Under the pieces are notes generated by a model. That model was given only the letters and a program-made list of their open reading frames with translations, ran no database searches and was not told the DNA's origin. A program made the translations under genes and the position numbers. From an uncultured Caulobacterales bacterium (GTDB taxonomy: Bacteria > Pseudomonadota > Alphaproteobacteria > Caulobacterales > Maricaulaceae): 64,000 nt of DNA. The stretch lies in assembly GCA_937929915.1 (NCBI GenBank), contig CALFUN010000005.1:20665-84664 (forward strand), written 5' to 3'. This document shows, in pieces, positions 22,531 through 40,382 of this stretch. Positions within the stretch are counted from its first letter, which is position 1; each line of letters begins with the position of its first letter.

Positions 22531-23976
22531 ATGCCTTTGGAACGTTTGAATAACAGCTCTCTTGGCTGGGCAAATTCCCCGCCAAGATTATTAACGATGC
22601 GTATGATCGGCATCTTATCCATCATAAGCATTGCTAGCCTATGGATCATAGATAAGCAGGCTTTCAACATATGGGTATGGAGCTGGCGGCAAACTCTTTT
22701 TGGCGGGTTAGCAATCATAGCTTGGGTGAGTTTCATTTTCTCTCTTATCAGATTAGCGGCATGTTTCTCATCCAAACCCAAAGCGTTTATTCCAGAGCCT
22801 CTATGCGATACGCTGCCAAACTATACTGTACTCGTGCCATTATTTAATGAAGCCAATATGGTGTCTGGCTTGATGCAAGCGTTAGAGGCAATAAAATACC
22901 CATCTTCGAAATTACAAATATTGCTGATATGCGAGGCGATTGATCCGCAAACGATTGCCCGTGTTAAATTTCATATGCGCGCGCCCTTTGAATTAATTAT
23001 TGTTCCCAAAGGCCATCCACAAACTAAACCTCGCGCGCTAAATTATGCCATGCAATATGCTCGCGGTAACTTTATAACAATTTATGATGCCGAAGACCGC
23101 CCGCACCCCAATCAACTTTTAACGGCCATCTCAGCCTTTAACGCCAAGCCGCATTGGGGCGCCCTGCAAGCCCCGCTTGATTATTTTAACGCAGAGCAAA
23201 ACTGGCTCACACGGCAATTTAGCCTGGAATATGCAGCCTTATTTCATGTTTGGGTACCGTGGCTCATGCAGCATAAATTTCCGTTCCCCCTTGGCGGTAC
23301 ATCTAACCATATGCGCCGCGCAGCTTTGGAAAAAGTTGGCGGCTGGGATGCCTATAATGTAACTGAAGATGCTGATCTGAGCTTCCGTCTTGCCGCGTAT
23401 GGATATGACATTGGCTATATCACACCGCCCACAGAAGAAGAGGCCGTCTCGCGTCTGCCTGACTGGCACTTTCAGCGCGCACGGTGGATAAAGGGATATA
23501 TGCAAACCTGGCAAGTCCACATGAACCAGCCTTTTCGCCCTGCAGGCCTAAAAGCTTTGCGAAGATTTATATGCCTGCAATTAACGCTTGGCATGACACT
23601 GTTATCTGTGTGGTTTTATGTTCCTGCTATTATCGCCATGACGACAGCCCTGATCTGGATTATCGTATCTGGACAGACCATACCGCTGCATCCTTTTTAT
23701 CTGTTGAGTTTTATTATCTCTATTAGCACCGCTATTTTAATTGGCGCTATAGGGGCCGTGCGCGCAGGCAAGCCAAACCTTATAAAATGCGCAATTTTCA
23801 TGCCTGCCTATTGGGCCTTATTATTTGCCCCCTCTTTACGCGCGATTTGGGAGCTGCGCCGCATACCTTTTCACTGGCATAAAACCGAACATGGTGTTAG
23901 CTCCCGCTCCGAAACAATATTGCCCTCTCTTGGCATGCCTGACACGGAGTTAAATCCCCATGAGTCTATCAAATGA
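22531..23976 (+). CDS. Membrane glycosyltransferase family 2 (BcsA/XagB-like)
   Basis: 481 residues. Two N-terminal membrane helices (about residues 22-75) precede a cytoplasmic GT-A catalytic domain with VLVPLFNEANMV, the metal-binding YDAEDRP (DxD-like), GGTSNHMRR, TEDADLSFRLA carrying the catalytic acid region, and the processive-synthase motif QRARW. Three or four C-terminal helices follow. The set QxxRW plus flanking helices matches synthases that extrude polysaccharide across the inner membrane; the sugar is unknown. Start could be the given ATG or Met23 (MRMIGILSI). Its end overlaps the next small membrane-protein gene by 17 bases, suggesting a two-protein unit. Confidence 0.88.
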   Translation: MPLERLNNSSLGWANSPPRLLTMRMIGILSIISIASLWIIDKQAFNIWVWSWRQTLFGGLAIIAWVSFIFSLIRLAACFSSKPKAFIPEPLCDTLPNYTVLVPLFNEANMVSGLMQALEAIKYPSSKLQILLICEAIDPQTIARVKFHMRAPFELIIVPKGHPQTKPRALNYAMQYARGNFITIYDAEDRPHPNQLLTAISAFNAKPHWGALQAPLDYFNAEQNWLTRQFSLEYAALFHVWVPWLMQHKFPFPLGGTSNHMRRAALEKVGGWDAYNVTEDADLSFRLAAYGYDIGYITPPTEEEAVSRLPDWHFQRARWIKGYMQTWQVHMNQPFRPAGLKALRRFICLQLTLGMTLLSVWFYVPAIIAMTTALIWIIVSGQTIPLHPFYLLSFIISISTAILIGAIGAVRAGKPNLIKCAIFMPAYWALLFAPSLRAIWELRRIPFHWHKTEHGVSSRSETILPSLGMPDTELNPHESIK

Positions 23977-24240: not shown

Positions 24241-27200
24241 TTAAGACACTAAAGCTAAAAGCACGTCCTGACCCTCTTTTTCAAAAGCTTGTGTTTCTAA
24301 GGCTAATTGTTCAGAGAGTGTTTGCGATTGAACAAATGAATCGCCCAAACGCGTCATAACGCCCGTTTCCAAATTGATTTGCACAGAGGTCGTCGCCGTC
24401 ATACCGTTATCTAACAGCGCTTTAATCTGCAAATCTACCATGCCTTGATCTAAAGGCCGCTGAATGACAGCAAAATCTTGGCCTGCCATATAATCAACCC
24501 AGTCAGGTAGAGCCGCACCGTTCATAGACTTAACCTGCCATGTTTGGACATTTACACCTTCAACAAAATCAAAAGTCGATGTGAGTTGCACGCTAATATG
24601 ATGTTCAAATGCAACCGTTTCGACAATCAGGAAATCTGCATTATCGCCGCTACGTCCCACAGGTGAATAAGACACTGACCCTAAGAATGACGCATCTTCG
24701 GACCTCGCCTGTATATTGTCTTGTTGTTCAACAGAGCGTTTATCAAAATAGCGTTGTAGATTAATAAAATCACCATCAACACCTTCTGCGCCAATAAACG
24801 CGACAGGGTTTATAGGGGCAGCGCTGCGTTCAACCGGTAAGGTATCAAGCCTCTCTATGGCCTCTTCAACCATTTGAGCTTCCGCAACTCTGTCGACAAA
24901 GATAACATCTAAATTCACATAATCATCGGTGGCACTACCCGACATATTTCCAGATATGTCCGTTTGATCGGCAATCACATCACCATCAGGCTGCTGCTGT
25001 GTAGAACTAGCCATATAATTGCCGTTTTCATCAACGAGCGTTGTAACAGTTTCTCCGTTCGGGAAGGTCAGTGTGATCGTAGCCCCCGGCTCGCCTGTCC
25101 CTGTTACATCCACAAGACCTGTTTCCAGATTAAAGACGGCCTCAATCGTTGGCGGCTGCGGCGCCGTCACATCTGGCGTCACCGTGATGATAAGCTCTGC
25201 CAAATTCGAGACATCCCCCGCATCATCACTCACAAAGACTGTGAAACTGCGATCGCCAAGTGTCGGCATATCTGCAAGATTTTGATAGGATAATGTTGCA
25301 AGCAAGGCTTGGAAGTCTGCAAGATTGCCAGGGCCGCTGGCTATAGCAATATCAAACGCGGTACCATCACTGGTAATCGTGAATAGTGTACCCCCCGCAC
25401 TCGCATCAAACATAGCCCCGCCTGTACCAAGACCAAGGTCTTGGCCGCCCAAGGTTACAATTTCATCTACGCCGTCAGCCAGACCTGTAATCATGCCGGA
25501 TATACCCGACGACACTAATGTCTCACTATCTATATCAGTGATCTCAACATCTGAAATTACGGCCATAGAGGGATCATTATTGGCAATAGACACAGCGGCA
25601 TCCGTCCCAATCTCGGCCCCGTTTAAATCGAGAATTGGGGCATCATTAACTGGCGCAACTATAATGGTTAAAGTCGCCACATCTGTCCCGCCTTGGCCAT
25701 CATTAATTGTGTAACCAATAGTCAAACTACCGTTAAAATCAGGCGCAGCTGTGAAATCCACTGTCCCGTCACGGTTAAGTGTTACAATGCCTTCAGGTAA
25801 TGTCACTGCCTCGCCAATCGGTAAAATCGTCCCATCAGCAAGCGCTGCCATATCAATAATAAGCGCATCATTATCAGGGTCATTATCATTCTCCAAAAGA
25901 TTGATAGTCCCCGCCCCGTCTTCATTGATACGCAAAATATCATCGCTTGCCATTGGCGCGGGGTTTGTGACGGTTATATCGAACATATCCGTGACTATGC
26001 CGCCCTCGCCGTCATCAGCTGTAAGCGTGACCGTGTAAACACCGTCCGCGTTCGGGCCGCCTTGCGAAGCAGAGTTATCCACCGTGCCTGTGATTTGTCC
26101 TGTACCAGAGTCAATCATTAGGCCCGCTGGCAGGCCAGTCGCTGCGTAAGTTAAATCATCCGCGTCAGGGTCAGATATAGACGGCGTAATCGTTACATCC
26201 TGCCCGTCCGTAAGCATCTGATCCGTTACGGGCATGTCAATAATAGGCACAGGATTGGAGACTGTGTAAGTCACAGTTGTTGTCACCAGCTCGCCCTCTG
26301 GGTCGGTGGCCGTTAGCGTGACAATATAAACACCATCTCCATTTGGCCCGCCAATCGAGGCGCTATTATCAGGCGTGCCTGTGATAAGGCCTGTACCAGG
26401 GTCAATCATTAGGCCCGCTGGCAAGCCAGCCGCTGTAAACATCAACGGCTCTCCGTCGACATCATTAAAGAACGGGCTCACATTGAGCGGCGTAATCGGG
26501 CGATTATCAACAATAGGCTGGGCTGGAATGACCTCTGGCGTTAAGGGCGTTGGGTCAACCACAATAGGGGCATCATTCGCGCCTGTTACAGTCACCGTTA
26601 ATGTGGCTGTATCCGTGCCACCCTCACCATCATCCACTTGATACACAATGCTTGTTGTCCGTGTTTCGCCAATCGCTAAATCTTCAAAATCCCCATTTGG
26701 ATCAAATGTGATAGACCCGTCAGGAGCCACGCTAATCAACCCGCCATTATCTCCTGCAACAGGCATATTCACGCCTGTACCATCTGATAATGTCATTAAA
26801 TCACTTTCAGTCGTGCCTGTCGCAATTCGTGTGACCGTTAAGTTATCTCCATTCGGGTCATTATCATTACTCAAGACACCTTCAGCGGCTGAGATTATGA
26901 TAGATGTATCTTCATCTGTTTCATAAGCTGCCGCGGCCCCATCATTAAGCGCGATTGGGGCAATATTTTGAGTGCGAATATCTAAGTCGTTGACAAGCGG
27001 AATTGCATTGCCGCCATCCGCGTCTAATGTTGCCGGGCCATTGAGATTAAAGCTGGTAAAGCTGCCATCTATTCCGCCATCATCGCCAATAATATTCTCA
27101 TCATTGACATCAAAGCCGTCATTAACATCAGTCCCTTCAAATATATCAAAAAGACCATCACCATCACTATCCGTCATAGTATTTGAAAGTCCCGTTGCAG

Positions 27201-30200
27201 GCGCTGCGCCTAGGCCTGCCTCTAATGTATCATTTGCGCCGTCATTATCAGAATCAACATCAAGGTAATCCGCAAGCTCATCTGGCATGGCCGCGCCTGC
27301 ATCCGTATTCACGGGCATGATTAAAACTTCGCCCGCCATCGCAGCCCCTGTGCCTGCTGTGACTGTGCGTGTGTCATAATTATCATCAAGACCATCGCGA
27401 TTTACATCCACAAAACTGCCGCCCGCATTTGGATCACCTGTGCCGCTTGGCGCGATATAATCAGCTGTTGCTTGGGCTTCGACATTATCTGTAATCCCGT
27501 CATTATCACTATCAATATCGAGATGGTCTGCAATGCCGTCATTATCCGTATCGGGTAAATTCGCCAGCGTTGGCAACGCTTGGTCTGGCGGCCCTGCTCC
27601 ATCATTAGAGCTAGTCGTCACCCCTTGCAGAATAAATTCAGCCACCGGGTTTGCCGTATCAAAATCATTAATACGGAAAATCTGGCCTGTTGTATTCTGG
27701 CTAAAGAATATTTCACTTTCGCCGCTCACAGGATCCGTGGCAACCCAGCCAGCTCCAAATAATCCTAAATTACCTGTGGCAGGAAACTCTCCTAAAATCT
27801 GAACTTGATTGAGCGTAACTGTATCGCCATTGGCCACGCCTGACAGGTCAGCAAATTGCAGAAAGGTCCCATCTGTCGTATTTGCAATCTGATAGAAAAT
27901 TGAATCAACAATTAAAAACTCGCCTCTCACTTCTTCGGTTAAGTTAAACGACAAGACAAGAGGATCATCCGTTGAACCAACATCACCCGTAATATTAAAT
28001 AATGATATTTCTGTCGCGTCACTGCGCGCAGCTAAGAACCCATTAAAGATAGTTCCTGCAAACTGGGAACGAATAGCATCTGACGGACGCCCAATTAAAA
28101 AGGCTTCCCCGTCTCTATCAATTTTAATTAAATCATCGGCAAGCACGGTATTACCCGCCGCATCAACACCGCCAGCTTGGGCGACGCCATAAATGAAATC
28201 ACTATCAGGATCATAGCCTGTCGCATTGATACGGAAACCTGCCGCTTCGCCAATGGGAACATAGCTGTTTGAAAGAGCATTAAATGAGAAAAGCTGACCA
28301 GATTCAATCGGCTCGCCATTAATCGTGCCCGTATTGACAATTTGATAAAAACCCGGGCCTTCATCAAAAGCATCGGCTTGACCAGCCACGCCAGCTATAG
28401 GTACAAGCCCTGCTTCGATAACATCTAAAATGCCATCATTATCATCATCTACGTCTTCAGAATCAATAACACCGTCACCATCTGTATCTGCGGCCAGATT
28501 AATCACGAAAGATGAAGAGGATAAGGACGATGTATTCGTCGGAGCCATGCCGCCGCTATTATCAATAATTGTAGATGGCGGATTGGAAGCTATGCCTTCT
28601 GAGAGATCTGATACTCTAAATTCAAGGCGAGCGCCTAACAAAAACCCAGGCTCTGCGATAAAACGAATATAGGTATCAGCCGCTAGTAATAAGGCTTCCC
28701 CATCAGGTACGGGGGTCGCATCCAAATTATCATCATCGCCGAGTTGGAAATCTGTAAATTCATGATCTTCAAACCCTGCCGCTGTTCGGACATATTGAAA
28801 CCGCCCGCCGCTTTCATCAGCCAAGATGACACCGATTGCAAACTCTGCTTGTTCTGGATCATCAATATTTAATTGTGCGAGTAAATCCGCAACAGAAATC
28901 AAGCCAAGGTCAGAGGCCGATGCTCCATTGGCTATGGCCTCGCGTACATCATCACCCGTAAGAGTTGCAACATTTTCCGTCAATTCTGGAGAGATACGTA
29001 AAATAGGCACCGGGGTTTGCACGCCTGCCTCAGCCACCGTCCCGTCAGCTGTTATAGGGTTGATTGTTGGAGCTGGCGCGTCATTTGCACGCTCTACGCT
29101 CAAGGTCGACGTAGCCAGAATAACACCTGTGGAATCTGTGACTTCAAAATCAAAGAAACGCGCACCATCTGTGTTATTTTGATCGAGATTTTGATAGGCA
29201 ATTAAGCGAAGAAAACCTTGGAGGTCTTCGGAGTCAAACACAGGCCCATTCGCATTCCGAATAACAACTGTAAGATCGCTACCACCTGGAGCATTACCAT
29301 TTGCACCACTATTTGTGGTAGTGCCATTATTCCCGCCTCTCTGCTCTATGGTCACAATAAATTCTGTATCGCCGAATATAAGCGGGTCACTGGCGTCAAT
29401 CTCGCCCGTTTCAAGATTGACCGTTAATTGCAAACTGCCCGCATCAATCCGTAGCAATTCATCTTCGCCGTCATTATTATCTGGTAAGCGTACAGAAATC
29501 GCCACTTCAGCTATATTATCTTCAGGATCATCAATAATAGCGTCTAAAGCCAGAAGATTGACAAGCGGCTGGCCCGGTTGATCTTCAACAAAAACATCCG
29601 TAAAGTCAGTCCCTGGCAAAGCTCCGTTTAAATCTACAACAGGTACATCATTCTCGCCTGTGAAATTAATTGTCACTACCGCGCTATCTGCCGCGCCGCT
29701 CGCATCGGTAATGGTATAAGTAAAGCTATCCGTGGCCGTTTCATTTATGTCTAAGCCATTAAACACACCATTTGGATCATAATCAAATGTGCCATCTGCA
29801 CGAAGTGTTAGCAGCGCCCCCGACCCTAACGTAATTTGCTGCCCAACATCACTAGCTTCCCCGTTCACATCGGTAACGGTGAAGCTATCTGCTGCAATAT
29901 CGCCGCCATTACCATTATCGTTAAAGACATTACTCGCAATAACGCCATCTTCTGTAATCGTAAATATATCATCTATCGCATCAAGAGCAGGCTCTACACC
30001 TAAAACCGTAATTGTAGACACCGCATCATTACTCACTTGCCCGCCGCTATCTGTAACACGCAAAGTTAAGCTTCGGTCAGTTCCCGTCCCTTCTGTCGGG
30101 GTGACGGAGGTGTTTTCATAAGTTATTCCGCGAATAAGACTATCAAGATTAGCTTGGGCAATGGGGCCGCCATCTTGCGCGGTAATATTCAATATACCTG

Positions 30201-33200
30201 CAACCGCGTCGAATTGAATAAAAATATCCGTACCGCCGATTGTTAGGCTTTGTTGTGATGTATCACTGCCGTCCAATGCAAGAGATAGGCTCATACCATT
30301 ATCACCGTTAAAGGTGATAATTTCACTCGCCCCGTCAGCAATATTATTTGGCTCAATTTGTAAGAGTGTAATATCGCCCTCGGCAATATCATCAACATCA
30401 GCGCTTTGCGCAGCAATATTAATTGGCGCATCCCCTTCAGTGAAGATCGCGCTAAAATCTGAATTTGTATCCGCGGTCGCTGGATCAGAGAATATATTGG
30501 TAAAATTACCATTGAGGCCAAAATTCGCGCCTGCTCTATCTCTGTCATAGAAAATTTCAAATGAAGACGTTGAAGAGAACACAAGCTGTACCGCATTGGC
30601 TGTATCTGTAATCTGCGCCCCAGGGTCACTATCGGTTGGAGCAAAGGTAATCTCTGCGCTATTTTCTGTAACAACTATATCCGTCCCCATAGAATCATTA
30701 CCGCCAGCAGGGCCTTCTAAGATAAACGCATCAATGCTGTTGGCGTTAACTGTAATGCGTTCTTGGCGCGTTGGGTCAGCCCCTACACCCGTGGCCGCAT
30801 CTAAATCTCCAATGAGGACTGTGAAATCAAGCGCGATAGGATTTCCGCTGACACTCTCAACAAGCTCATACCGAATAGTCGCTGTATTTTGAACCGTAGC
30901 CCCGCTTGCGCCATCGGCTCCCAAGCCAACATTCGCATTTCCGTCAATCACATTTAAAGTCGGATTATTTGGCCCTGCCGCATTCACAACTGTCGCTACC
31001 AAATTAACACTCACGCCATTAACGATGGCTACATTTTCATAAACTGCGCGCTCGGCTAAGGCCAGACCGTCCGCCTCAACTGTGCCGCCTTCATTCGTTA
31101 CGATTGGATCTGTAAATGTGAGGGGAATAAGTCCGTTTTCACCCGGTACAGCCGCTGTGGAGATAACATCTAAATCAAGCCTTGGCGTTTCATTCACAAT
31201 CGGATCAACCACGGCATCGCGAAAGTCAACATCCGCCGTTAAAGGTATGCCATTGGCTGCATCATTATCTGCATCAGGTAGAGCTGCTGCGCCTGTCGCA
31301 ATAGATTCATTGACGTTAAAGCCATCATTGGCGAGCGTGCCATTTTGCGTGTCTAAAACATCAGCCAGACCGTCGCCATCTGCATCGATATTGGAAAATA
31401 GCTCATCGCCTGTATTTGGGAGTCCATCAGGGCCATCACCAATATCAACTTGCCCGTCAGCATTAGCATCTGCAGCGCCCAACCCTGCCTCTGCAATATC
31501 AAACAAGCCATCATTATCAGAATCTATATCCAGATAATCGACATTATCCTCATCATCTGTATTTACAGGGACAAGACCATCACCGTCCCCCACTGTGGCC
31601 GCAGCAGAACTTGCAGTCAGCGTATTTGTGCCATTTGCATTACGGCTATCGTAATTATCATCTAATCCATCATTATTAATGTCAGTAATAGTAGAGCCGA
31701 TGCCAGATGGCGCAATATAGCCAAGTGTCGTCTGGGCTTCTATATTATCCGTAATACCGTCATTATCAGAATCGATGTCGAGTTGATTGGCAATACCGTC
31801 AGCATCAAAATCACTTTCTATCATAGCGGATACAGATGTACCCAAAACGAATGTTGTGACTTCAATACCTTCTTGGCGGCCTCGGTCATGAATAACGTCA
31901 ACCCCATATGTTTCTCCATCACCCAGGCCAAAAGCTACATCAAATAAGCGGTTAGCGTTTCTACCAGAATTTCGGACAACTTCTGTACCATCTGTTAAAA
32001 CTTGCCCCGCAACAACAGAGACACCGCCAACCGTATGCGCGCCCAGCCCATCTAATAGCGCCACTGGATCTTCGGAGAGCGTATGATCGATCGAGAAAAC
32101 ACCGCTTTCAACGCGTCCTGGTTGGCCGCCGCCATCAAGAGCCTGGCCTTGAAGATTATGTTGTGCGTCTGAAAAATTCAGTCCATTTGATGTTATCGAG
32201 TAGCTAAAATTATGTCCGTTCACATCTGGGACAGCGTAGATAAGTTGAAGCGCAATATCAGATCCAACTTGTCCAACATTCAGAGTCGGGGTGAAAGATC
32301 TATTTCCGTTCCCCCCGCTATTCCCATCGCCGTTAAAGCCCGTATAATTTAAGGTTAATGATCCAACCAGATTCCCTAGGCTATCAAGAACGGGAATTTC
32401 AAAAACTCCGCTACCGTCACCATTTTCCGTTAAAACCGTTGTGCCGATTGTAAACCCTTCAATGACGCTAACACCTTCATTCACATCCAAAATACCGTCA
32501 TTATCATCATCAACATCATCAATATCAGCCACGCCGTCCCCGTCAGTATCAAGCTCAACGGCAGGGTCAAATTGAATTGCGCCGATTAAGACGCCAAGTG
32601 CGCCTTTATTATTGGCATTATTAACATTGGGCGCATCGGCAATACGCGTTGTTGTACGGGTAAATTCAACCGAGGCAATATCCGTCGTTGCGCTCGTAAC
32701 TTCTAATATGCCCTGCGTATTAGTACCGCCCGCACCCACAACCCCTATAATATCGACTGAGCTACTCGCCGCAGGGTCGTGGGTTACAAAATCCGTAGAA
32801 ATAGCTTGATTACGGAAGATTAAACCCTCGCCAATGGGCGATTCATCATTCAGACGGAACATCGCATCGGTGATAATATTACCCGCCGCATCACGCGCAA
32901 CAAATCCTGTCAACTCTTCAGCTCCGTCGGCATTATTATTTAAAAAGCCAAATTGAATCGCAACAACATCAACCGCCTCTTCAAATGTGAGAGCATACTC
33001 TTCTGAGCTGCCCAATGTGGAATCATCCACAGCCGTACCGCCAACAAGGCTGCGGCCAAGACCAATTTCATTTGGCACATTCCCCGTTTCAAGCGTTAAT
33101 GTGCCGTCACTCCCTGTATCTGAATCTGTTCGGGTAAACGTGATAAGATTACCGTTAAACGTCGCCGATAAAGTATCATTACTATTGCTGAAATCTGATG

Positions 33201-34074
33201 CAGGATCAAAGTTCACATCAATCGGCCACCCTGATAATGATGAGCTATTATGAGCGCTCATATTTAAGGCCGTTACGGGCTGAGAAAAAACAGTTGGTGC
33301 AGGCTTATCTATATCCCCTGTATCTTTTATAGATGTAGCAGGGTTTACAAAAGTACTGTCAAAACTTGAATCTGGCGTAATGATATTTACGCCATTTTCA
33401 TCTGATTGCGTAGACAGATAATTAATTTGAACGGCGGAAATAGATGGAACAGATTCATGACTTACACTGACATTTTCTATCGTCACAACAGGGAGCGGTT
33501 TATCATCGCTCACGCCGTCAATATAAATTTCTCCGTTTTCAGGCAAAGGCGTTGTAAACGGTAACTCCGTATCTAGATCATCCAAACTAGCATACGTATT
33601 TTCACTCACAGGCTGCGGCGTTACGACAGCGATTGAGACATCACCCTTAGTCATATCGCTTTCGGGGTGCGTGGTAATGCCGGCGCTATCGGAAACGCCG
33701 TCATCAGGATTATAACTGCCTTGGTCTGGAGTTAAATCTTCAAGCGTTAAAACCTGGCCAATCGACGCTTCATTGACCTCTTCTAAGGCTGACAACAACG
33801 CCTCATTATCTGCCTCCGACTGGTCATTTTGCGCAACTACGCCGTCAAATGTCTCTTGCATTGTCTGGGTCACATCATCGGCTTGCATCGCGTCAACAGC
33901 TACATCTGCGCCTGTCACAAAGCCCGCCGCATCGAGTAAAATACGCGGCTCTAAGCTACGCAAGCCAAGCCCCAATGACGGATTTAACCCCGAAGAGCGC
34001 AGCCAATCTGTTTTATTATTATTTTTATTTACCGTGGTGTTTTGTATTAAATTTGATTTCACTAAATTTGACAT
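24241..34074 (-). CDS. Giant LEPR-XLL repeat protein, putative surface adhesin
   Basis: 3277 residues, very acidic. There is no hydrophobic signal peptide; instead the N-terminus carries the LEPR-XLL motif LEPRILLDAAG at residues 41-51. Roughly in order come an acidic Ser/Asp-rich spacer, a beta domain, thrombospondin type-3 calcium-type repeats (DTDGDGVADIDDVDDDNDG), another beta domain, more TSP3 repeats, cadherin-like and VCBS domains, a TSP3 block interrupted by a propeller-like domain (FRINATGYDPDSDFIYGVA), two near-identical putative Ig repeats, further VCBS/cadherin-like modules, and a roughly 230-residue C-terminal domain without known motif. RTX nonapeptides are not seen. Its neighbours at 34331-40382 encode a TolC lipoprotein, two adaptors and an M50-HlyD fusion, presumably its export machinery. 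It is inferred to act outside the cell in attachment or biofilm. Confidence 0.8.
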   Translation of the reverse strand: MSNLVKSNLIQNTTVNKNNNKTDWLRSSGLNPSLGLGLRSLEPRILLDAAGFVTGADVAVDAMQADDVTQTMQETFDGVVAQNDQSEADNEALLSALEEVNEASIGQVLTLEDLTPDQGSYNPDDGVSDSAGITTHPESDMTKGDVSIAVVTPQPVSENTYASLDDLDTELPFTTPLPENGEIYIDGVSDDKPLPVVTIENVSVSHESVPSISAVQINYLSTQSDENGVNIITPDSSFDSTFVNPATSIKDTGDIDKPAPTVFSQPVTALNMSAHNSSSLSGWPIDVNFDPASDFSNSNDTLSATFNGNLITFTRTDSDTGSDGTLTLETGNVPNEIGLGRSLVGGTAVDDSTLGSSEEYALTFEEAVDVVAIQFGFLNNNADGAEELTGFVARDAAGNIITDAMFRLNDESPIGEGLIFRNQAISTDFVTHDPAASSSVDIIGVVGAGGTNTQGILEVTSATTDIASVEFTRTTTRIADAPNVNNANNKGALGVLIGAIQFDPAVELDTDGDGVADIDDVDDDNDGILDVNEGVSVIEGFTIGTTVLTENGDGSGVFEIPVLDSLGNLVGSLTLNYTGFNGDGNSGGNGNRSFTPTLNVGQVGSDIALQLIYAVPDVNGHNFSYSITSNGLNFSDAQHNLQGQALDGGGQPGRVESGVFSIDHTLSEDPVALLDGLGAHTVGGVSVVAGQVLTDGTEVVRNSGRNANRLFDVAFGLGDGETYGVDVIHDRGRQEGIEVTTFVLGTSVSAMIESDFDADGIANQLDIDSDNDGITDNIEAQTTLGYIAPSGIGSTITDINNDGLDDNYDSRNANGTNTLTASSAAATVGDGDGLVPVNTDDEDNVDYLDIDSDNDGLFDIAEAGLGAADANADGQVDIGDGPDGLPNTGDELFSNIDADGDGLADVLDTQNGTLANDGFNVNESIATGAAALPDADNDAANGIPLTADVDFRDAVVDPIVNETPRLDLDVISTAAVPGENGLIPLTFTDPIVTNEGGTVEADGLALAERAVYENVAIVNGVSVNLVATVVNAAGPNNPTLNVIDGNANVGLGADGASGATVQNTATIRYELVESVSGNPIALDFTVLIGDLDAATGVGADPTRQERITVNANSIDAFILEGPAGGNDSMGTDIVVTENSAEITFAPTDSDPGAQITDTANAVQLVFSSTSSFEIFYDRDRAGANFGLNGNFTNIFSDPATADTNSDFSAIFTEGDAPINIAAQSADVDDIAEGDITLLQIEPNNIADGASEIITFNGDNGMSLSLALDGSDTSQQSLTIGGTDIFIQFDAVAGILNITAQDGGPIAQANLDSLIRGITYENTSVTPTEGTGTDRSLTLRVTDSGGQVSNDAVSTITVLGVEPALDAIDDIFTITEDGVIASNVFNDNGNGGDIAADSFTVTDVNGEASDVGQQITLGSGALLTLRADGTFDYDPNGVFNGLDINETATDSFTYTITDASGAADSAVVTINFTGENDVPVVDLNGALPGTDFTDVFVEDQPGQPLVNLLALDAIIDDPEDNIAEVAISVRLPDNNDGEDELLRIDAGSLQLTVNLETGEIDASDPLIFGDTEFIVTIEQRGGNNGTTTNSGANGNAPGGSDLTVVIRNANGPVFDSEDLQGFLRLIAYQNLDQNNTDGARFFDFEVTDSTGVILATSTLSVERANDAPAPTINPITADGTVAEAGVQTPVPILRISPELTENVATLTGDDVREAIANGASASDLGLISVADLLAQLNIDDPEQAEFAIGVILADESGGRFQYVRTAAGFEDHEFTDFQLGDDDNLDATPVPDGEALLLAADTYIRFIAEPGFLLGARLEFRVSDLSEGIASNPPSTIIDNSGGMAPTNTSSLSSSSFVINLAADTDGDGVIDSEDVDDDNDGILDVIEAGLVPIAGVAGQADAFDEGPGFYQIVNTGTINGEPIESGQLFSFNALSNSYVPIGEAAGFRINATGYDPDSDFIYGVAQAGGVDAAGNTVLADDLIKIDRDGEAFLIGRPSDAIRSQFAGTIFNGFLAARSDATEISLFNITGDVGSTDDPLVLSFNLTEEVRGEFLIVDSIFYQIANTTDGTFLQFADLSGVANGDTVTLNQVQILGEFPATGNLGLFGAGWVATDPVSGESEIFFSQNTTGQIFRINDFDTANPVAEFILQGVTTSSNDGAGPPDQALPTLANLPDTDNDGIADHLDIDSDNDGITDNVEAQATADYIAPSGTGDPNAGGSFVDVNRDGLDDNYDTRTVTAGTGAAMAGEVLIMPVNTDAGAAMPDELADYLDVDSDNDGANDTLEAGLGAAPATGLSNTMTDSDGDGLFDIFEGTDVNDGFDVNDENIIGDDGGIDGSFTSFNLNGPATLDADGGNAIPLVNDLDIRTQNIAPIALNDGAAAAYETDEDTSIIISAAEGVLSNDNDPNGDNLTVTRIATGTTESDLMTLSDGTGVNMPVAGDNGGLISVAPDGSITFDPNGDFEDLAIGETRTTSIVYQVDDGEGGTDTATLTVTVTGANDAPIVVDPTPLTPEVIPAQPIVDNRPITPLNVSPFFNDVDGEPLMFTAAGLPAGLMIDPGTGLITGTPDNSASIGGPNGDGVYIVTLTATDPEGELVTTTVTYTVSNPVPIIDMPVTDQMLTDGQDVTITPSISDPDADDLTYAATGLPAGLMIDSGTGQITGTVDNSASQGGPNADGVYTVTLTADDGEGGIVTDMFDITVTNPAPMASDDILRINEDGAGTINLLENDNDPDNDALIIDMAALADGTILPIGEAVTLPEGIVTLNRDGTVDFTAAPDFNGSLTIGYTINDGQGGTDVATLTIIVAPVNDAPILDLNGAEIGTDAAVSIANNDPSMAVISDVEITDIDSETLVSSGISGMITGLADGVDEIVTLGGQDLGLGTGGAMFDASAGGTLFTITSDGTAFDIAIASGPGNLADFQALLATLSYQNLADMPTLGDRSFTVFVSDDAGDVSNLAELIITVTPDVTAPQPPTIEAVFNLETGLVDVTGTGEPGATITLTFPNGETVTTLVDENGNYMASSTQQQPDGDVIADQTDISGNMSGSATDDYVNLDVIFVDRVAEAQMVEEAIERLDTLPVERSAAPINPVAFIGAEGVDGDFINLQRYFDKRSVEQQDNIQARSEDASFLGSVSYSPVGRSGDNADFLIVETVAFEHHISVQLTSTFDFVEGVNVQTWQVKSMNGAALPDWVDYMAGQDFAVIQRPLDQGMVDLQIKALLDNGMTATTSVQINLETGVMTRLGDSFVQSQTLSEQLALETQAFEKEGQDVLLALVS
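25970..26510 (-). repeat. Tandem putative-Ig (He_PIG-like) repeats in the giant gene
   Basis: Two adjacent modules of about 95 codons each share the segments AAGLPAGLMIDPGTG / AATGLPAGLMIDSGTG and GDGVYIVTLTA / ADGVYTVTLTA. The similarity extends to DNA: GTCAATCATTAGGCCCGCTG occurs near 26108 and 26399. This indicates a recent internal duplication. Confidence 0.75.
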
Positions 34075-34330: not shown

Positions 34331-35833
34331 TTATTGCCCTGGCATTTTGGCCCGCTTTGTCCAAAGCGTTTCCAAGCTTTCAGCAACAATGCTTATCTCT
34401 TCATCTCCGCGAATATCTGCCATATAAGGATCATAACCTAAAGCCGTGTAGATATGGGCAAAGGCCTCGGCCAATTCAGCCTGAATATTGTCACGCCGGG
34501 CTTCGGATAAAATACCGTTCATTTGTTCACGTACAAGCGTTTGCCGCGACGCATTTGAAGCGCGTGATAAAGCTTCAACTTGCTCAAGAATATCAGACTG
34601 TACCAGCGCACCATCATTGGCGGTTTGGTAAGCTTCCATAAGCCCTTCATAACGCACACGCGCCACACCAACTTGCGTCATCACAGCCATGGCCGTAGCA
34701 AGACCTTTTTGGCGCTCAAGCTCCGCGCCAGCTTTGGCCTTACGTTTACGCGCTGGTGTCGAAAACACTTTGAGTAAATTCCAACTCGCACGTGCGCCGT
34801 AATCAACCCAGTTTTGATTAAATAGAAAGTCATTAGAATTTACATTTAAACCGCCAAAGCCTTCTATACTTGGCAAAGCTTCCAAAACGGCGCTTTTGAT
34901 TTCCGCATCCCCTATACGCTGTGCATAAAGGCTTTCGCGCATTTCAGGACGGTTAATCAAGGCCGTCTCTATCATCTGCGCGTAATCCATTGTCAATTGA
35001 ACCGGGCTTGTCATTTGCGCAGGCGCTTGCAGGGTAAAATCTTGATCCGCAGACAGGCCCATCAAAGCAGCCAGTTCCATACGCGATGCCTGTAAGTCTC
35101 GCGAAAGACGCTGGGCTTGAGCTTGAATATCATTTAATTCACGTTGATAGGATAGAGCGGGCATGGGCGCTGTTCGGCGCGAGGCAAATTGCGCCCGCGA
35201 TTGCAAAAATGCTGCCTTCACTGTTTCTTCAAGTTGCTCAAGTTTTTGGTTTAAGCGTTCTGAACTTACGGCTCTATAATAAGCGCTATGCACATCTTCC
35301 ATGATCTCAATAATCGCTTTGCGGCGGCGTTCTTCATAAATTAGAGTTTCATTGGCAAGCTGTTCACTCCGAATTTTTGCAAGGCCAAAATCCAAAACAT
35401 TCCATGTGGCTGATAAATCCGAGGCAAAAACATCACGTTCTGTCGATGTTGATGGCTCCAAAGATTGTTGTCCTGACAATAAAGACACACTAGATGCCCC
35501 AGGTTGATTATCACGGCCATAATAGCTGCCATTAGCAACAACTTGCGGCAAAAGATCATATCGCGAGAGGTCATAATCTTTGGAGGCTAAATCAATCTCC
35601 AACATCGCAACACGGTGGTCTAAATTATTTTTTAGCGCACGTGCCATGGCTTCATATAATGTAATCTCACCTGTTACAGGCTCTTGCTGCGCGGCAATAT
35701 CGGCTCGCATTTGCACAGCATTTTGTGTTGTCTCAGCGATTGTTAAATCTTGCGGGGCGGTACTGCAGCCTACGCTAAATGCCCCTCCCACCATCAGAGA
35801 CGTCATAAGCAGTTTTCGTGTTAGATTTTGCAT
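34331..35833 (-). CDS. TolC-family outer-membrane lipoprotein
   Basis: About 500 residues from ATG 35833 (GGTGA eight bases upstream); the track's longer start would hide the lipoprotein signal. The signal ends FSVGC, so Cys22 should be lipidated, as in OprM/CusC-type channels. The mature part has the TolC duplication of long helices with two beta-strand regions (ATWNVLDFGLAKIRSEQLAN and ASWNLLKVFSTPARKRKAKAG are the two repeat halves). It lies 256 bases upstream of the giant gene on the same strand and is divergent from the adaptor operon. It is inferred to be the outer-membrane duct of the exporter encoded around it. Confidence 0.88.
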   Translation of the reverse strand: MQNLTRKLLMTSLMVGGAFSVGCSTAPQDLTIAETTQNAVQMRADIAAQQEPVTGEITLYEAMARALKNNLDHRVAMLEIDLASKDYDLSRYDLLPQVVANGSYYGRDNQPGASSVSLLSGQQSLEPSTSTERDVFASDLSATWNVLDFGLAKIRSEQLANETLIYEERRRKAIIEIMEDVHSAYYRAVSSERLNQKLEQLEETVKAAFLQSRAQFASRRTAPMPALSYQRELNDIQAQAQRLSRDLQASRMELAALMGLSADQDFTLQAPAQMTSPVQLTMDYAQMIETALINRPEMRESLYAQRIGDAEIKSAVLEALPSIEGFGGLNVNSNDFLFNQNWVDYGARASWNLLKVFSTPARKRKAKAGAELERQKGLATAMAVMTQVGVARVRYEGLMEAYQTANDGALVQSDILEQVEALSRASNASRQTLVREQMNGILSEARRDNIQAELAEAFAHIYTALGYDPYMADIRGDEEISIVAESLETLWTKRAKMPGQ

Positions 35834-35869
35834 GTTAATTTCACCATATTTTTCTACTATTAATTGCAT

Positions 35870-36082
35870 TAATACGGTAAAGGTCTAAACAAATATTTAA
35901 ATTGCACTCAATAATTGTATTTGTAAATTAATTACATAATCTAAGCCAATGTTTTATAATAATAATTTTAAATATTCTTGACACTTTACAGCAAATGCGT
36001 GTGCAGTTTAAATTCTTGTTAATTTAATTATGCAACTTTTAATATTATTCATATTGAATGATATTTGAAAAAGAGGCGGTCA
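35870..36082. promoter_or_regulatory. AT-rich divergent promoter region
   Basis: This very AT-rich gap separates the tolC-like gene (minus) from the adaptor operon (plus) and must hold both promoters. A perfect TTGACA -35-type hexamer occurs at 35978 on the plus strand, but no well-spaced -10 is obvious. The gene at 36083 has AGAGGCGG just upstream of its ATG. Confidence 0.4.
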
Positions 36083-36874
36083 ATGTTTCATAAAAAATTA
36101 AATCTCAGTTTTACGCTCACCCTAGGGGTCGCCTTAATCGCCCCAGCTATCTGGGCTATGCCTGCGAATAAAACTGCGAATATAGATACGCCTCAAGCAC
36201 CTCATAATACATCTGAATTCAATGCCCGAGGTGTTCTTGTTGCAGGCCAAAGCGCGAATATCGCAGCTGGCATGTCAGGCCGCCTTCTCAAAGCGCCGCA
36301 TAAGATAGGACAATATGTCAAATCAGGCACCTTGCTGGCACAATTTGATTGCGCCAGACAAGAAGCCGAGCTTGACGCACGTAAAAGCGCCCATGCCACA
36401 CAATCTTTGCGCTATGATAATCAAAATGAATTGCTCGCCCTCGGCGCGGCAGGGGAATTAGATGTCTCTATTGCTCGTTCTGAACGTGATGAGCTACAGG
36501 CTGAAATTCGTACAATTCAAGTCGCCATGCGCGATTGTAAAATCACAGCTCCATTTTCGGGCTATATTACCGCGCGTCATGTCAATGCTTATGAAACGCC
36601 GCAAACCGGGCAACCCATTTATAGCTTCATACGCGCAGGCAGTGCGGAACTCTCTGTCATTACACCCTCAAATTGGGTAAAATGGTTGAAAGCTGGACAA
36701 GAATTCTCTTTCACCGTTGATGAAACGGGCGAGACATTTCGCGCAAAACTCTTACGGTTATCAGCCGAAGTCGATCCCGTCAGCCAAACTATAGAAATCA
36801 CAGCAAAGCCTATAGGTAAATCCACAGCTCGTCCTGGTATGAGCGGCGTAGCACACTTTACGGTGCCCGAATGA
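36083..36874 (+). CDS. Periplasmic adaptor (HlyD/MFP) subunit
   Basis: About 263 residues from ATG 36083, preceded by AGAGGCGG; the track's start at 36065 is a TTG without a ribosome site. An N-terminal hydrophobic segment ending AIWAMPA is a signal peptide or anchor. A lipoyl-like half (NIAAGMSGRLLKAPHKIGQYVKSGTLLAQFD) follows, then a short helical hairpin with LDVSIARSERDEL, the second lipoyl half (ITAPFSGYITARHVN), and a beta-barrel. This is the compact layout of RND-type membrane-fusion proteins. Its stop overlaps the next ATG (ATGA). First gene of the three-gene operon. Confidence 0.85.
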   Translation: MFHKKLNLSFTLTLGVALIAPAIWAMPANKTANIDTPQAPHNTSEFNARGVLVAGQSANIAAGMSGRLLKAPHKIGQYVKSGTLLAQFDCARQEAELDARKSAHATQSLRYDNQNELLALGAAGELDVSIARSERDELQAEIRTIQVAMRDCKITAPFSGYITARHVNAYETPQTGQPIYSFIRAGSAELSVITPSNWVKWLKAGQEFSFTVDETGETFRAKLLRLSAEVDPVSQTIEITAKPIGKSTARPGMSGVAHFTVPE

Positions 36875-38247
36875 AAGCGCTCATGTTAAATAAAACCCTT
36901 ACAAGCGCTCAAGCACAGATCAAATCAAAACCCGACGGTAATACGCAAAGCTTAAACCTACAAACCCTGCTAAGGCTTGAAGGCGAAGCGATGAGCGCCT
37001 CTGATTTCTTGGCGCTCAAACATATTGCGGTCAACCGCTGCCGCGCTCTAGTAAATTGCGGACATATTATTTGGGTACGCCGCAATGGCACGCAAATTAA
37101 GCTCGCAGCCATTACAGCCCAAGAACAAGTCGATCCTAACACACCATTTGCGCAATGGATGCAGGCCAATCTGCAATCTCGGGCCAAATCAGGAGATCTA
37201 GATATAGCCGCGCAGTGGAAATTCAAAAGCCAACGCAGCACGGATGCTTTTGCCTATCCATTCATTCACGCCTATTATGCTCCCTTCGCGCCGAACCCGA
37301 AATCGGGCGGTTTATTATTTACATCTGACACATGTTTTGCAGAAAATACCTTGCCTTTACTAGATCGCCTTGGGCAAGTTTTTGGTATAAGTGACGCGGC
37401 CATGCGCAGTAAGAAACGCGGACGCATGAGCCGTAAAAAACGGCTTTATCTGCTCGGCACCTGTTTGGCTCTGGGCCTTATCGCGCTCATCCCAATCCCT
37501 GTCACCAGCCTAGCGCCCGCAGAAATTGTTGCAGCAGAGCCATTTATTATCAGCGCGCCAATGGAAGGTGTGGTCAAAACTATTCTTGTCCCGCCCAATA
37601 GCCCTATCAAAAAAGGCGATATATTGGTGCAATTTGAAGATACAGCCCTGCGCAATGAATTTATACTCACACAGCAAGAGCTTAACCTCGCTGAGGCTAG
37701 GCGGCGCCAAGCCAGTTTACGAGCTTTTATTGATAATGATGCCAAGCGCGAACTCGCCATTGCCGAGGCCGAACTTAAATTAGCTGCGGCCAGAACAAAT
37801 TATGCGCGCGAACGGCTGGCCCAAACCTCCCTTACCGCGCCGCAAGACGGCCTCGCGCTTTACACAGATATATCTGAATGGACGGGACGTCCTGTCTCCA
37901 CAGGTGAAGCGATTATTAAAATCGCTGATCCCGCACGCGTATTGCTTCGCATTGATGCCCCCCTCGCTCATGGCGAGGCTTTGCAGAGCGGTGCGCGTGT
38001 GCGTATGTTTTTAGATGCAAACCCCATTAATCCTATTGAAGCGCGGCTTGAACGTGCCAGCTATCAGGCAAGCCGCGTAGCTGAAGGCGGCATGGCCTAT
38101 GAGGCTTATGCAGGTTTTACAGATAACCGGCAGACTTTACGAATTGGCGGGCGCGGTGTTGCCAAAATCTACGGCGAAAAAGCGCCGATCGCCTACTGGC
38201 TTATCCGGCGGCCTTTAACCCTCGCGCGGCAAATTTTCGGCGTGTAA
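36871..38247 (+). CDS. HlyD-like adaptor with cytosolic GAF-like head
   Basis: 458 residues. Residues 1-185 precede the only membrane helix (191-212, RLYLLGTCLALGLIALIPIP) and should be cytosolic. This head looks like a GAF-type domain (FAYPFIHAYYAPF, GGLLFTSDTCFAENTLPLLDRL), but I cannot identify a ligand. After the helix come a lipoyl half (FIISAPMEGVVKTILVPPNSPIKKGDILVQFEDT), an alpha hairpin, the second lipoyl half (TSLTAPQDGLALYTD) and a barrel domain. It overlaps the upstream adaptor by four bases and lies two bases before the M50-HlyD gene. A sensor-like head on an adaptor is unusual. Confidence 0.8.
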   Translation: MKALMLNKTLTSAQAQIKSKPDGNTQSLNLQTLLRLEGEAMSASDFLALKHIAVNRCRALVNCGHIIWVRRNGTQIKLAAITAQEQVDPNTPFAQWMQANLQSRAKSGDLDIAAQWKFKSQRSTDAFAYPFIHAYYAPFAPNPKSGGLLFTSDTCFAENTLPLLDRLGQVFGISDAAMRSKKRGRMSRKKRLYLLGTCLALGLIALIPIPVTSLAPAEIVAAEPFIISAPMEGVVKTILVPPNSPIKKGDILVQFEDTALRNEFILTQQELNLAEARRRQASLRAFIDNDAKRELAIAEAELKLAAARTNYARERLAQTSLTAPQDGLALYTDISEWTGRPVSTGEAIIKIADPARVLLRIDAPLAHGEALQSGARVRMFLDANPINPIEARLERASYQASRVAEGGMAYEAYAGFTDNRQTLRIGGRGVAKIYGEKAPIAYWLIRRPLTLARQIFGV

Positions 38248-38249
38248 TC

Positions 38250-40382
38250 ATGTCTCATATTCATGGCGTTTCGCCGCAGACACAGCCGCAAATTCCGCCT
38301 TTAAGACCGCTACGCCAAGAATTATCAATTCTGCGCGGCGGCAACATAGATCAATGGCTGCTTTATGACCCTGTTCGCGGTAAATATCATAAAATAGGCA
38401 AAGCTGCGATGACCATGCTCTCACATTGGCAATCTGTTACCCCTGCAAAATTTTTAGAGATATTATCCGAAACAGCTCCACAGCTCGGCGCAGATGAAGC
38501 GAGCTTACAAAGGTTGACCGAATTTTTACTCAAAGAAAAACTGCTCATTCATCCGCCCCAAGCGGATGCCGAAAGCCTTGCGCGGCAAGAAGCAGCCATG
38601 CGCAAACCTTTTCACGAACAATTAATTCATAAATATCTATTTTTCCGCATCCCTTTATTTCGGCCGCAAAAATTCCTCAACCGCTACGGCCCATTCATTT
38701 CGCAATTTTTTCGCCCTCTTACGGCATGGAGCCTCATCATAATTGGGCTTATCGGTTTGTTTTTTGCCGCGCGGCAATGGGAACAATTTATCAGCACGTT
38801 TCTATATTTCTTCACCCTGCAAGGTTTTCTATTTTACGCACTTAGCCTGACCCTTATCAAAGCCTTACATGAGCTTGGCCATGCCTTTGCTGCGCGGCAT
38901 TTTGGAGCGCGCGTTCCCATCATTGGCGTGGCATTTCTGGTCATGTTCCCTGTCCTTTACACAGACACAACGGATGTTTGGCGGATTTCTGAACGCCGCG
39001 CGAGGCTTTGGATTAACGGCGCGGGTATGATAACCGAGTTATCCATCGCAGCCATTTCAGTCTTTCTTTGGAGTTTTTTGCCCGACGGGCCATTTCGCAG
39101 CGCCGCGTTTTTTGCCGCAACAACTAGTTGGGCCTTAAGCCTATTTGTTAATTTAAACCCCTGCATGCGCTTTGATGGATATTATCTCATAAGCGATTTT
39201 TTTCGTATTGAAAACTTACAAGCCCGCGGCTTTGCAGCAGGGCGCTGGGTGATGCGCAAGACTTTATTCGGGCTTGATGAAGGCGCACCAGAGATCTTAT
39301 CAAAACGGCAAATCAAAGGCTTATGTCTCTATGCATGGACAACGTGGATTTACAGGTTTTTCCTGTTTATCGGTATTGCCATACTTGTACATCACATCTT
39401 TCCCAAAGCGATTGGGATTGTTTTATTTATCATTGAAATTGGTATTTTTATCGCTCTGCCTCTCTGGCGGGAAATACGGCATTGGTGGAGCCATCGCATG
39501 ACTATCTTGAAACATAATCGCGGCAGATTGAGCCTGACCAGCGCGGCCATTTTCCTCGCTATTTTCTGTTTACCTTGGCAAAATCGCATATCCGCCCCTG
39601 CCCTTATACAACCCGCAGAGCAGACGGATATTTACCCGATTCACGCCGCGCAAATCACAGCCATTTACACCAAAAATGGTGACACCGTTAAAGCAGGCGA
39701 TATATTACTGAACATGCGCGCGCCAGCCCTTGAGCATAGGCGCGATGTTGCCATGCAAGACTTGGCTGCGGCACAAGCTCGGTGGAACCTTCAAGCCGCG
39801 AGCGAGCAGGACAGACAGCTGCGCGATATTCTCAAAGACACATTGACAGAAAAACAAGCTGCTTTAACCGCTATAAATGCAGAGCTAGCGCAATTAAAAC
39901 TGCGCGCGCCTCATGACGGACAGGTCAATGATATGCCTCATAGCCTGCATATTGGCCGTTATATCCATCAACGAGATCGCTTATTGCAAATTTCCAACCC
40001 TGCCAAAATTGAGCTGATTGGATTACCTCAAGAGATGATGGCCGCACGTATCGCACAGGGCGCAAAATTTACGTTCATCGGCGACCAAGCGAGGCGCAAA
40101 AAACGGATAGGTCATATTCAAGCGATAACGCCAACCGCAGAGCAAGTCATTACCGACCCTGTTTTAACCGCAATGGGCGGCGGCACCATCGCTGTCGTCG
40201 AAAACGAAAACAGGGAGCTTATCGCCGACATTCCTGTCTTTCGCGTACAAGGCTATGTTGAAGACATGCAAGATTTACGCATGGAACGCGGCGTGGTGAA
40301 AATCGCGGCGGCGCCAACTAGCCCCGCTCAGGCCGTTTGGAAAAATGTCGCGAAAGTTTTATTGCGCGAAACAGATTTTTAA
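38250..40382 (+). CDS. M50 (site-2-protease-like) metalloprotease fused to HlyD adaptor
   Basis: 710 residues. The N-terminal about 100 residues resemble a PqqD-like peptide-binding domain (WLLYDPVRGKYHKIGKAAM). The membrane core holds the M50 zinc motif HELGH at 207-211 and the third-ligand motif NLNPCMRFDGYY at 301-312, within several hydrophobic helices. After a last helix near 427-445 the chain becomes a HlyD-type adaptor (TDIYPIHAAQITAIYTKNGDTVKAGDILLNM, hairpin, LRAPHDGQVNDM). Both active-site motifs are complete, so proteolysis is plausible. No ABC or RND pump is encoded nearby, so this protein is the only candidate inner-membrane component of the export locus. Confidence 0.88.
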   Translation: MSHIHGVSPQTQPQIPPLRPLRQELSILRGGNIDQWLLYDPVRGKYHKIGKAAMTMLSHWQSVTPAKFLEILSETAPQLGADEASLQRLTEFLLKEKLLIHPPQADAESLARQEAAMRKPFHEQLIHKYLFFRIPLFRPQKFLNRYGPFISQFFRPLTAWSLIIIGLIGLFFAARQWEQFISTFLYFFTLQGFLFYALSLTLIKALHELGHAFAARHFGARVPIIGVAFLVMFPVLYTDTTDVWRISERRARLWINGAGMITELSIAAISVFLWSFLPDGPFRSAAFFAATTSWALSLFVNLNPCMRFDGYYLISDFFRIENLQARGFAAGRWVMRKTLFGLDEGAPEILSKRQIKGLCLYAWTTWIYRFFLFIGIAILVHHIFPKAIGIVLFIIEIGIFIALPLWREIRHWWSHRMTILKHNRGRLSLTSAAIFLAIFCLPWQNRISAPALIQPAEQTDIYPIHAAQITAIYTKNGDTVKAGDILLNMRAPALEHRRDVAMQDLAAAQARWNLQAASEQDRQLRDILKDTLTEKQAALTAINAELAQLKLRAPHDGQVNDMPHSLHIGRYIHQRDRLLQISNPAKIELIGLPQEMMAARIAQGAKFTFIGDQARRKKRIGHIQAITPTAEQVITDPVLTAMGGGTIAVVENENRELIADIPVFRVQGYVEDMQDLRMERGVVKIAAAPTSPAQAVWKNVAKVLLRETDF

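Follow-up and report, generated by a model that had tools for sequence, protein, structure and literature searches.

What is accomplished by a single chain in which a putative leader-binding domain, an intramembrane protease and an export adaptor are joined? The question is raised by a gene found in a 64,000-nucleotide stretch of DNA (the window) from an uncultured Caulobacterales bacterium. The gene is the last of a cassette ordered giant repeat protein, TolC, HlyD269, HlyD458 and M50-HlyD fusion. A preliminary description of the protein had proposed that it couples recognition, cleavage and transfer to TolC. The features to which the analysis refers are the following:

24241..34074, minus strand: giant Ig/cadherin-like repeat protein, probable substrate, 3277 aa
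33925..33954, minus strand: LEPRILLDAA tag, giant residues 41-50, the only match to the tag pattern in the window (six frames)
34331..35869, minus strand: TolC-like outer-membrane channel (PF02321), with a lipobox-like N-terminus
36065..36874, plus strand: HlyD269, small periplasmic adaptor of the RND_mfp type, 269 aa (105.3 bits, cut-off 94.9)
36871..38247, plus strand: HlyD458, 458 aa, with a GAF-like N-terminal region, one TM helix and a HlyD adaptor
38250..40382, plus strand: M50-HlyD fusion (PqqD/RRE-like, M50 and HlyD parts), 710 aa, ATG start
38301..38549, plus strand: putative PqqD/RRE-like N-terminal domain of the fusion, about residues 18-100 (from model fold order and family profile)
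38868..38882, plus strand: HELGH zinc motif of the fusion, residues 207-211
39150..39179, plus strand: NLNPCMRFDG motif of the fusion, residues 301-310
39576..40379, plus strand: periplasmic HlyD/MFP adaptor of the fusion, residues 443-710 (Pfam, AlphaFold2 model, Foldseek)

Judged from sequence and comparison, the fusion probably works in the inner membrane, where it would recognize and process giant surface proteins carrying an N-terminal LExR tag and act as an adaptor in the TolC-dependent system that secretes them, a reading to which a probability of about 0.6 is assigned. What was proposed in the preliminary description is sustained by the conserved TolC/adaptor cassette and by the tracking of tag and fusion across Alpha- and Gammaproteobacteria and inside the genus of the window organism; binding and cleavage are the parts that we infer.

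The protease and adaptor parts of the fusion are well defined. Residues H207, E208, H211, N301 and D309 do not change across 104 aligned homologues (a set of 91 from clade A, to which the window belongs, and a set of 13 from clade B), and the catalytic motifs are also invariant in a 12-sequence alignment made of the window fusion and 11 homologues 31-59% identical to it. Peptidase_M50 (PF02163) and HlyD_3 (PF13437) are matched in Pfam at 32.2 and 36.6 bits, over cut-offs of 27.2 and 22.2, respectively. The HExxH motif, the distal Asp and the polytopic core are those expected of a predicted M50 protease, and the lipoyl, barrel and hairpin fold of HlyD/MFP adaptors is supported by PF13437 and by structure matches. 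The AlphaFold2 model built from the 12-row alignment (pLDDT 80.9, pTM 0.52) features a small domain at residues 26-95, a helical membrane core, and the adaptor at residues 443-710. MacA, MexA and AcrA match the adaptor part in Foldseek with E values of about 1e-12; the top 50 matches of both the fusion and the HlyD458 models are all adaptors, because the adaptor part dominates. The two motifs and the lipoyl-type C-terminal adaptor reported at the outset are confirmed by these data, and the model of the single chain has the adaptor fold, the absence of which would have counted against the preliminary description, the active-site motifs being intact in the sequence. Conserved tails were noticed at the C-terminus of the fusion (RE..F, residues 706-710) and of HlyD458 (RRP....R...G), and may possibly make membrane or partner contacts.

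The PqqD-like nature of the N-terminus, also part of the preliminary description, is the weakest claim made about the fusion, and rests on homologues and on the fold order of the model. The window protein on its own has no PqqD match in Pfam, but 5 of 20 homologous N-termini do (best E 2.3e-8). A profile of the N-terminal family compared with the PDB matches PqqD best (3g2b, E 0.016), and four of the seven chains matched are PqqD/RRE chains (PqqD, TbiB1, TfuB1 and a PqqC/D). Residues 26-95 of the model are predicted to run strand-strand-strand-helix-helix-helix. Domains of the PqqD/RRE type bind RiPP leader peptides. The fusion family would share with these recognition elements the N-terminal fold order and the profile similarity, and differs in that the domain is joined to a membrane protease-adaptor and that the presumed ligand is a giant protein.

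Among curated families, the M50 part is nearest to the daptide protease (NF041824) and the YydH/LiaK epipeptide protease (NF058609). In a search of curated families the daptide intramembrane metalloprotease ranks first, followed by RND-type adaptors; the match (129.9 bits, residues 46-403, far under the cut-off of 300) reaches part of the N-terminal region of the fusion. Unlike these proteases, the fusion carries a HlyD adaptor, and no small precursor peptide was seen in the cassette.

The GAF-like region of HlyD458 is drawn from weak Pfam matches in 2 of 10 homologues and from the order of helices and strands. The window giant matches no RTX family in Pfam or among curated families. Existing annotations name the parts of the cassette HlyD-family adaptor, TolC-family protein and Ig-like protein, and in none of the annotations examined for these genes is a joint system described. 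The 195 bases between TolC and HlyD269 (35870-36064) separate divergent genes, and are probably a two-way cassette promoter. Past the giant (22531-23976) lies a gene for a family-2-like membrane glycosyltransferase, counterparts of which, 51-52% identical, are found beyond the giant in two relatives of the same family (L055 and L058); since it recurs there, the enzyme may act on the giant or belong to the system.

At least 589 relatives of the fusion were confirmed by scanning a collection of 84,980 species genomes. Among the best 80 loci of that scan, for which neighbourhoods were compared, the gene set and its order are conserved next to the majority of complete fusion loci, from Alpha- and Gammaproteobacteria to Nitrospirota and other groups. 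The cassette set recurs beside fusion homologues in relatives of the window organism and in further alphaproteobacteria, and plasmid-borne copies exist in Azospirillum, Citrobacter and E. coli. Litorimonas cladophorae KCTC 23968 carries the cassette as well (L067), at 60% identity. In E. coli the fusion gene was detected in 24 of 5,426 complete genomes, and is mostly plasmid-borne. No fusion relative was found in viral contigs. A cluster found in Pectobacterium was compared with the published MRP/T1SS adhesin locus (ECA3266), and the identity of the two was rejected on the basis of the neighbours: the cluster is flanked by a putative polysaccharide lyase gene and by genes judged by eye to be actP- and acs-like, and includes no GGDEF or LapG gene, while the MRP locus has been described with a LapG gene.

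The giants encoded next to the fusion vary in length and repeat type, and the pairing of tag and fusion stays constant. A sequence fitting the pattern LExR[ILMVF]x[FL]D[AG]A (the tag of giants beside clade A cassettes) is present in 31 of the 33 giant ORFs visible next to the fusion; the remaining two are internal pieces of interrupted giants. Searching 1.35 Mb of neighbourhood sequence in six frames returned 33 matches, all within giants. The tag begins about 18-116 residues from the start, mostly 20-55, and is preceded by a usually basic stretch. The maximum of hydropathy over 13 residues averages 1.1 in the giants vs. 2.2 in the TolC and HlyD269 proteins of those loci, which indicates that the giants have no Sec-like hydrophobic core. 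The tag resembles the LEPR-XLL domain (NCBIfam NF012209), of which Planctomycetota have many examples, in the LExR core placed at the start of giant proteins. Clade A members differ from it by featuring FDAA or LDAA where LEPR-XLL has LSAD, and the window giant scores 12.8 bits against NF012209, under the cut-off of 17, though the LEPRxLL letters are present.

The co-occurrence of tag and fusion was monitored by running a 35-residue tag profile (E <= 0.001) on genomes already searched for the fusion; in Gammaproteobacteria either this profile or NCBIfam LEPR-XLL was accepted, at the same threshold. Among 289 genomes of Alphaproteobacteria the tag was found in 11/13 with the fusion and in 0/276 without it (Fisher p 3e-18), among 369 genomes of Gammaproteobacteria in 38/58 and 3/311, respectively (p 2e-33), these tests ignoring phylogeny. 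In a set of 40 relatives the figures are 9/10 vs. 0/30. Within the genus of the window organism the tag was found in 7/8 genomes with the fusion vs. 0/10 without, a contrast which corrects for kinship in part only, and which argues against mere shared ancestry; in the single genome missing the tag the fusion lies on a 3-kb contig. The 20 of 58 gammaproteobacterial fusion genomes with no stringent tag match perhaps reflect fragmented assemblies or further tag variants. This co-occurrence suggests that the fusion probably recognizes the tagged giants and helps to export them. Two of the genomes in which no fusion was detected (G557 and G420, loci L209 and L210) encode proteins with the LEPR-like starts LEQRLLLSTSP and LEQRVLLSASP, representing either a third tag variant or the signal of another exporter.

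A second, divergent clade of fusions (clade B) is found in Gammaproteobacteria. The giants associated with it start with LEPRLLLSAD, LEERVLFSAN and similar sequences, match LEPR-XLL and conform to LExR..[LF]SA[DN], whereas those of clade A carry FDAA, LDAA or FDGA, conforming to LExR..[FL]D[AG]A. Two fusion clades tracking two tag variants form the pattern expected of a recognition pair, which is suggestive at the sequence level and is not proof. In clade B the gene after the fusion usually encodes a protein of about 655 aa that resembles SecA, with SecA_DEAD, preprotein-binding and P-loop domains, and is distinct from the housekeeping SecA. It lies beside the fusion and LEPR-XLL giants at L178-L182, L184, L185 and L189. 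Of 13 clade B genomes inspected, 12 have this second SecA. Clade A genomes have the housekeeping SecA only; the exception is Nitrospira defluvii, with an additional copy. The window genome encodes one true SecA and no second, dedicated one; a dedicated SecA for clade A was sought and was missing there and in clade A neighbourhoods, save for one uncertain case (L102). The presence of a SecA-like gene in clade B speaks for a motor of the Sec type; the use of SecA by clade A, which has no dedicated copy, is an extrapolation. The arrangement of clade B recalls the accessory Sec systems of Gram-positive bacteria, in which SecA2 serves serine-rich adhesins, as an extra SecA-like ATPase is encoded beside large surface adhesins. 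It is different in that clade A, the window included, has the housekeeping SecA only, and in that the cell envelope is Gram-negative and TolC, HlyD and M50 proteins belong to the cassette.

The sequence of events may be envisaged as follows. The predicted cytoplasmic PqqD/RRE-like domain would bind the LExR tag, much as related domains bind RiPP leaders; by this analogy, the odds of such binding are about even. The M50 core would then cut the giant at the tag or just after it, a step for which the chances look evenly balanced. The chain, which may cross the inner membrane by either SecYEG or the M50 core, would be handed by the adaptor domain of the fusion, together with HlyD458 and HlyD269, to TolC, through which the giant would leave to end on the cell surface. 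More tentatively, the motor may be SecA rather than an ABC ATPase, the housekeeping protein in the window organism and its dedicated SecA-like counterpart in clade B. The broadest formulation, a new ABC-less Gram-negative system in which SecA pushes giants with LExR leaders into an M50-HlyD/TolC conduit while the protease reads and cuts the leader, is likewise put forward as a conjecture only.

The motor is where the cassette departs from type I systems (PrtDEF/HasDEF, LapBCE, HlyBD-TolC). It shares with them TolC, HlyD adaptors and a substrate gene beside the machine, and the predicted one-step-like export of giant adhesins. It differs in having three adaptor proteins, M50 fused to one adaptor, and a giant that is tagged at its N-terminus and matches no RTX family. 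Having no ABC exporter, the cassette is a putative TolC/HlyD exporter which falls outside type I. A search for an ABC exporter inside the cassette led to the rejection of this possibility, no exporter-sized ABC protein being found in the 80 neighbourhoods. Export could still be driven by an ABC exporter encoded elsewhere, the fusion serving as adaptor and accessory protease of a type I system in disguise. The look of the TolC and HlyD parts is in line with this view, as is the presence of a PrtD-type exporter over cut-off in 26 of 33 cassette genomes, and of one in the window genome. The exporter of the latter (510.2 bits, cut-off 510.15), however, belongs to a separate, canonical type I system (L151, G000:C34:54000-62972), next to an RTX-like protein, its own HlyD and its own TolC. 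Moreover, in two cassette-bearing genomes, G022 and G340, the latter a single-contig Nitrospira chromosome, no type I ABC exporter was found, the best matches being MsbA/Atm1-like only, without a C39-type N-terminus. The empty neighbourhoods, these two genomes and the separate system of the window genome together indicate that export can probably proceed without an ABC pump; along with the absence of an RTX match in the window giant, they make a hidden type I system unlikely.

The other readings concern what the M50 part does. As the substrates are adhesin-like, the protease might act not in export but in holding the adhesin on the surface or letting it go, in the way that LapG acts on LapA, the N-terminal tag being a retention element cut for release. 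LapG acts in the periplasm; M50 active sites lie in the inner membrane, and the PqqD-like domain is predicted to be cytoplasmic. Nor would retention fit easily with a tag-fusion pairing which stays constant across so varied a set of giants, and this role is regarded as quite improbable. M50 proteases are often regulators, and the GAF-like domain of HlyD458 might sense a signal; still, a regulatory site-2 protease (cutting, for example, an anti-sigma factor) merely linked to adhesin genes is very improbable, given that the HlyD adaptor is attached to M50 in every full-length member aligned, that the fusion co-occurs with the substrate tag and not with a regulator, and that the window genome encodes another M50, which is RseP-like. 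Equally little credit is given to a core that is a non-proteolytic conduit or scaffold for the chain, an idea prompted by the several predicted membrane helices joined to the adaptor and by the fact that nothing else in the cassette is obviously an inner-membrane channel: the HExxH motif and the distal Asp, invariant over the two clades, would be superfluous in a scaffold.

Should the export and processing reading hold, the orphan LEPR-XLL domain would gain a role as an export and processing signal, giant adhesins would be exported by an added route devoid of an ABC pump, and RiPP-like leader recognition and intramembrane cleavage would be placed within a protein secretion system. A particular machine would be assigned to LEPR-XLL and its relatives across hundreds of species, E. 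coli, Citrobacter and Pectobacterium among them. Open-access papers, searched with LEPR-XLL, DUF4347, M50 combined with HlyD, and site-2 protease combined with TolC, returned no description of the cassette, and no link of LEPR-XLL to a secretion cassette was found in the open-access literature.

Two individual loci are worth recording. At L188:10703-12671 (G400) a frameshift splits the fusion gene beside an intact-looking LExR giant; either the gene was lost recently or the sequence contains an error. The IncHI1B plasmid of E. coli strain G5 (L195:4677-22055) carries a complete cassette, with a giant of 3668 aa, the N-terminus of which includes LESRQLFDGAAL.
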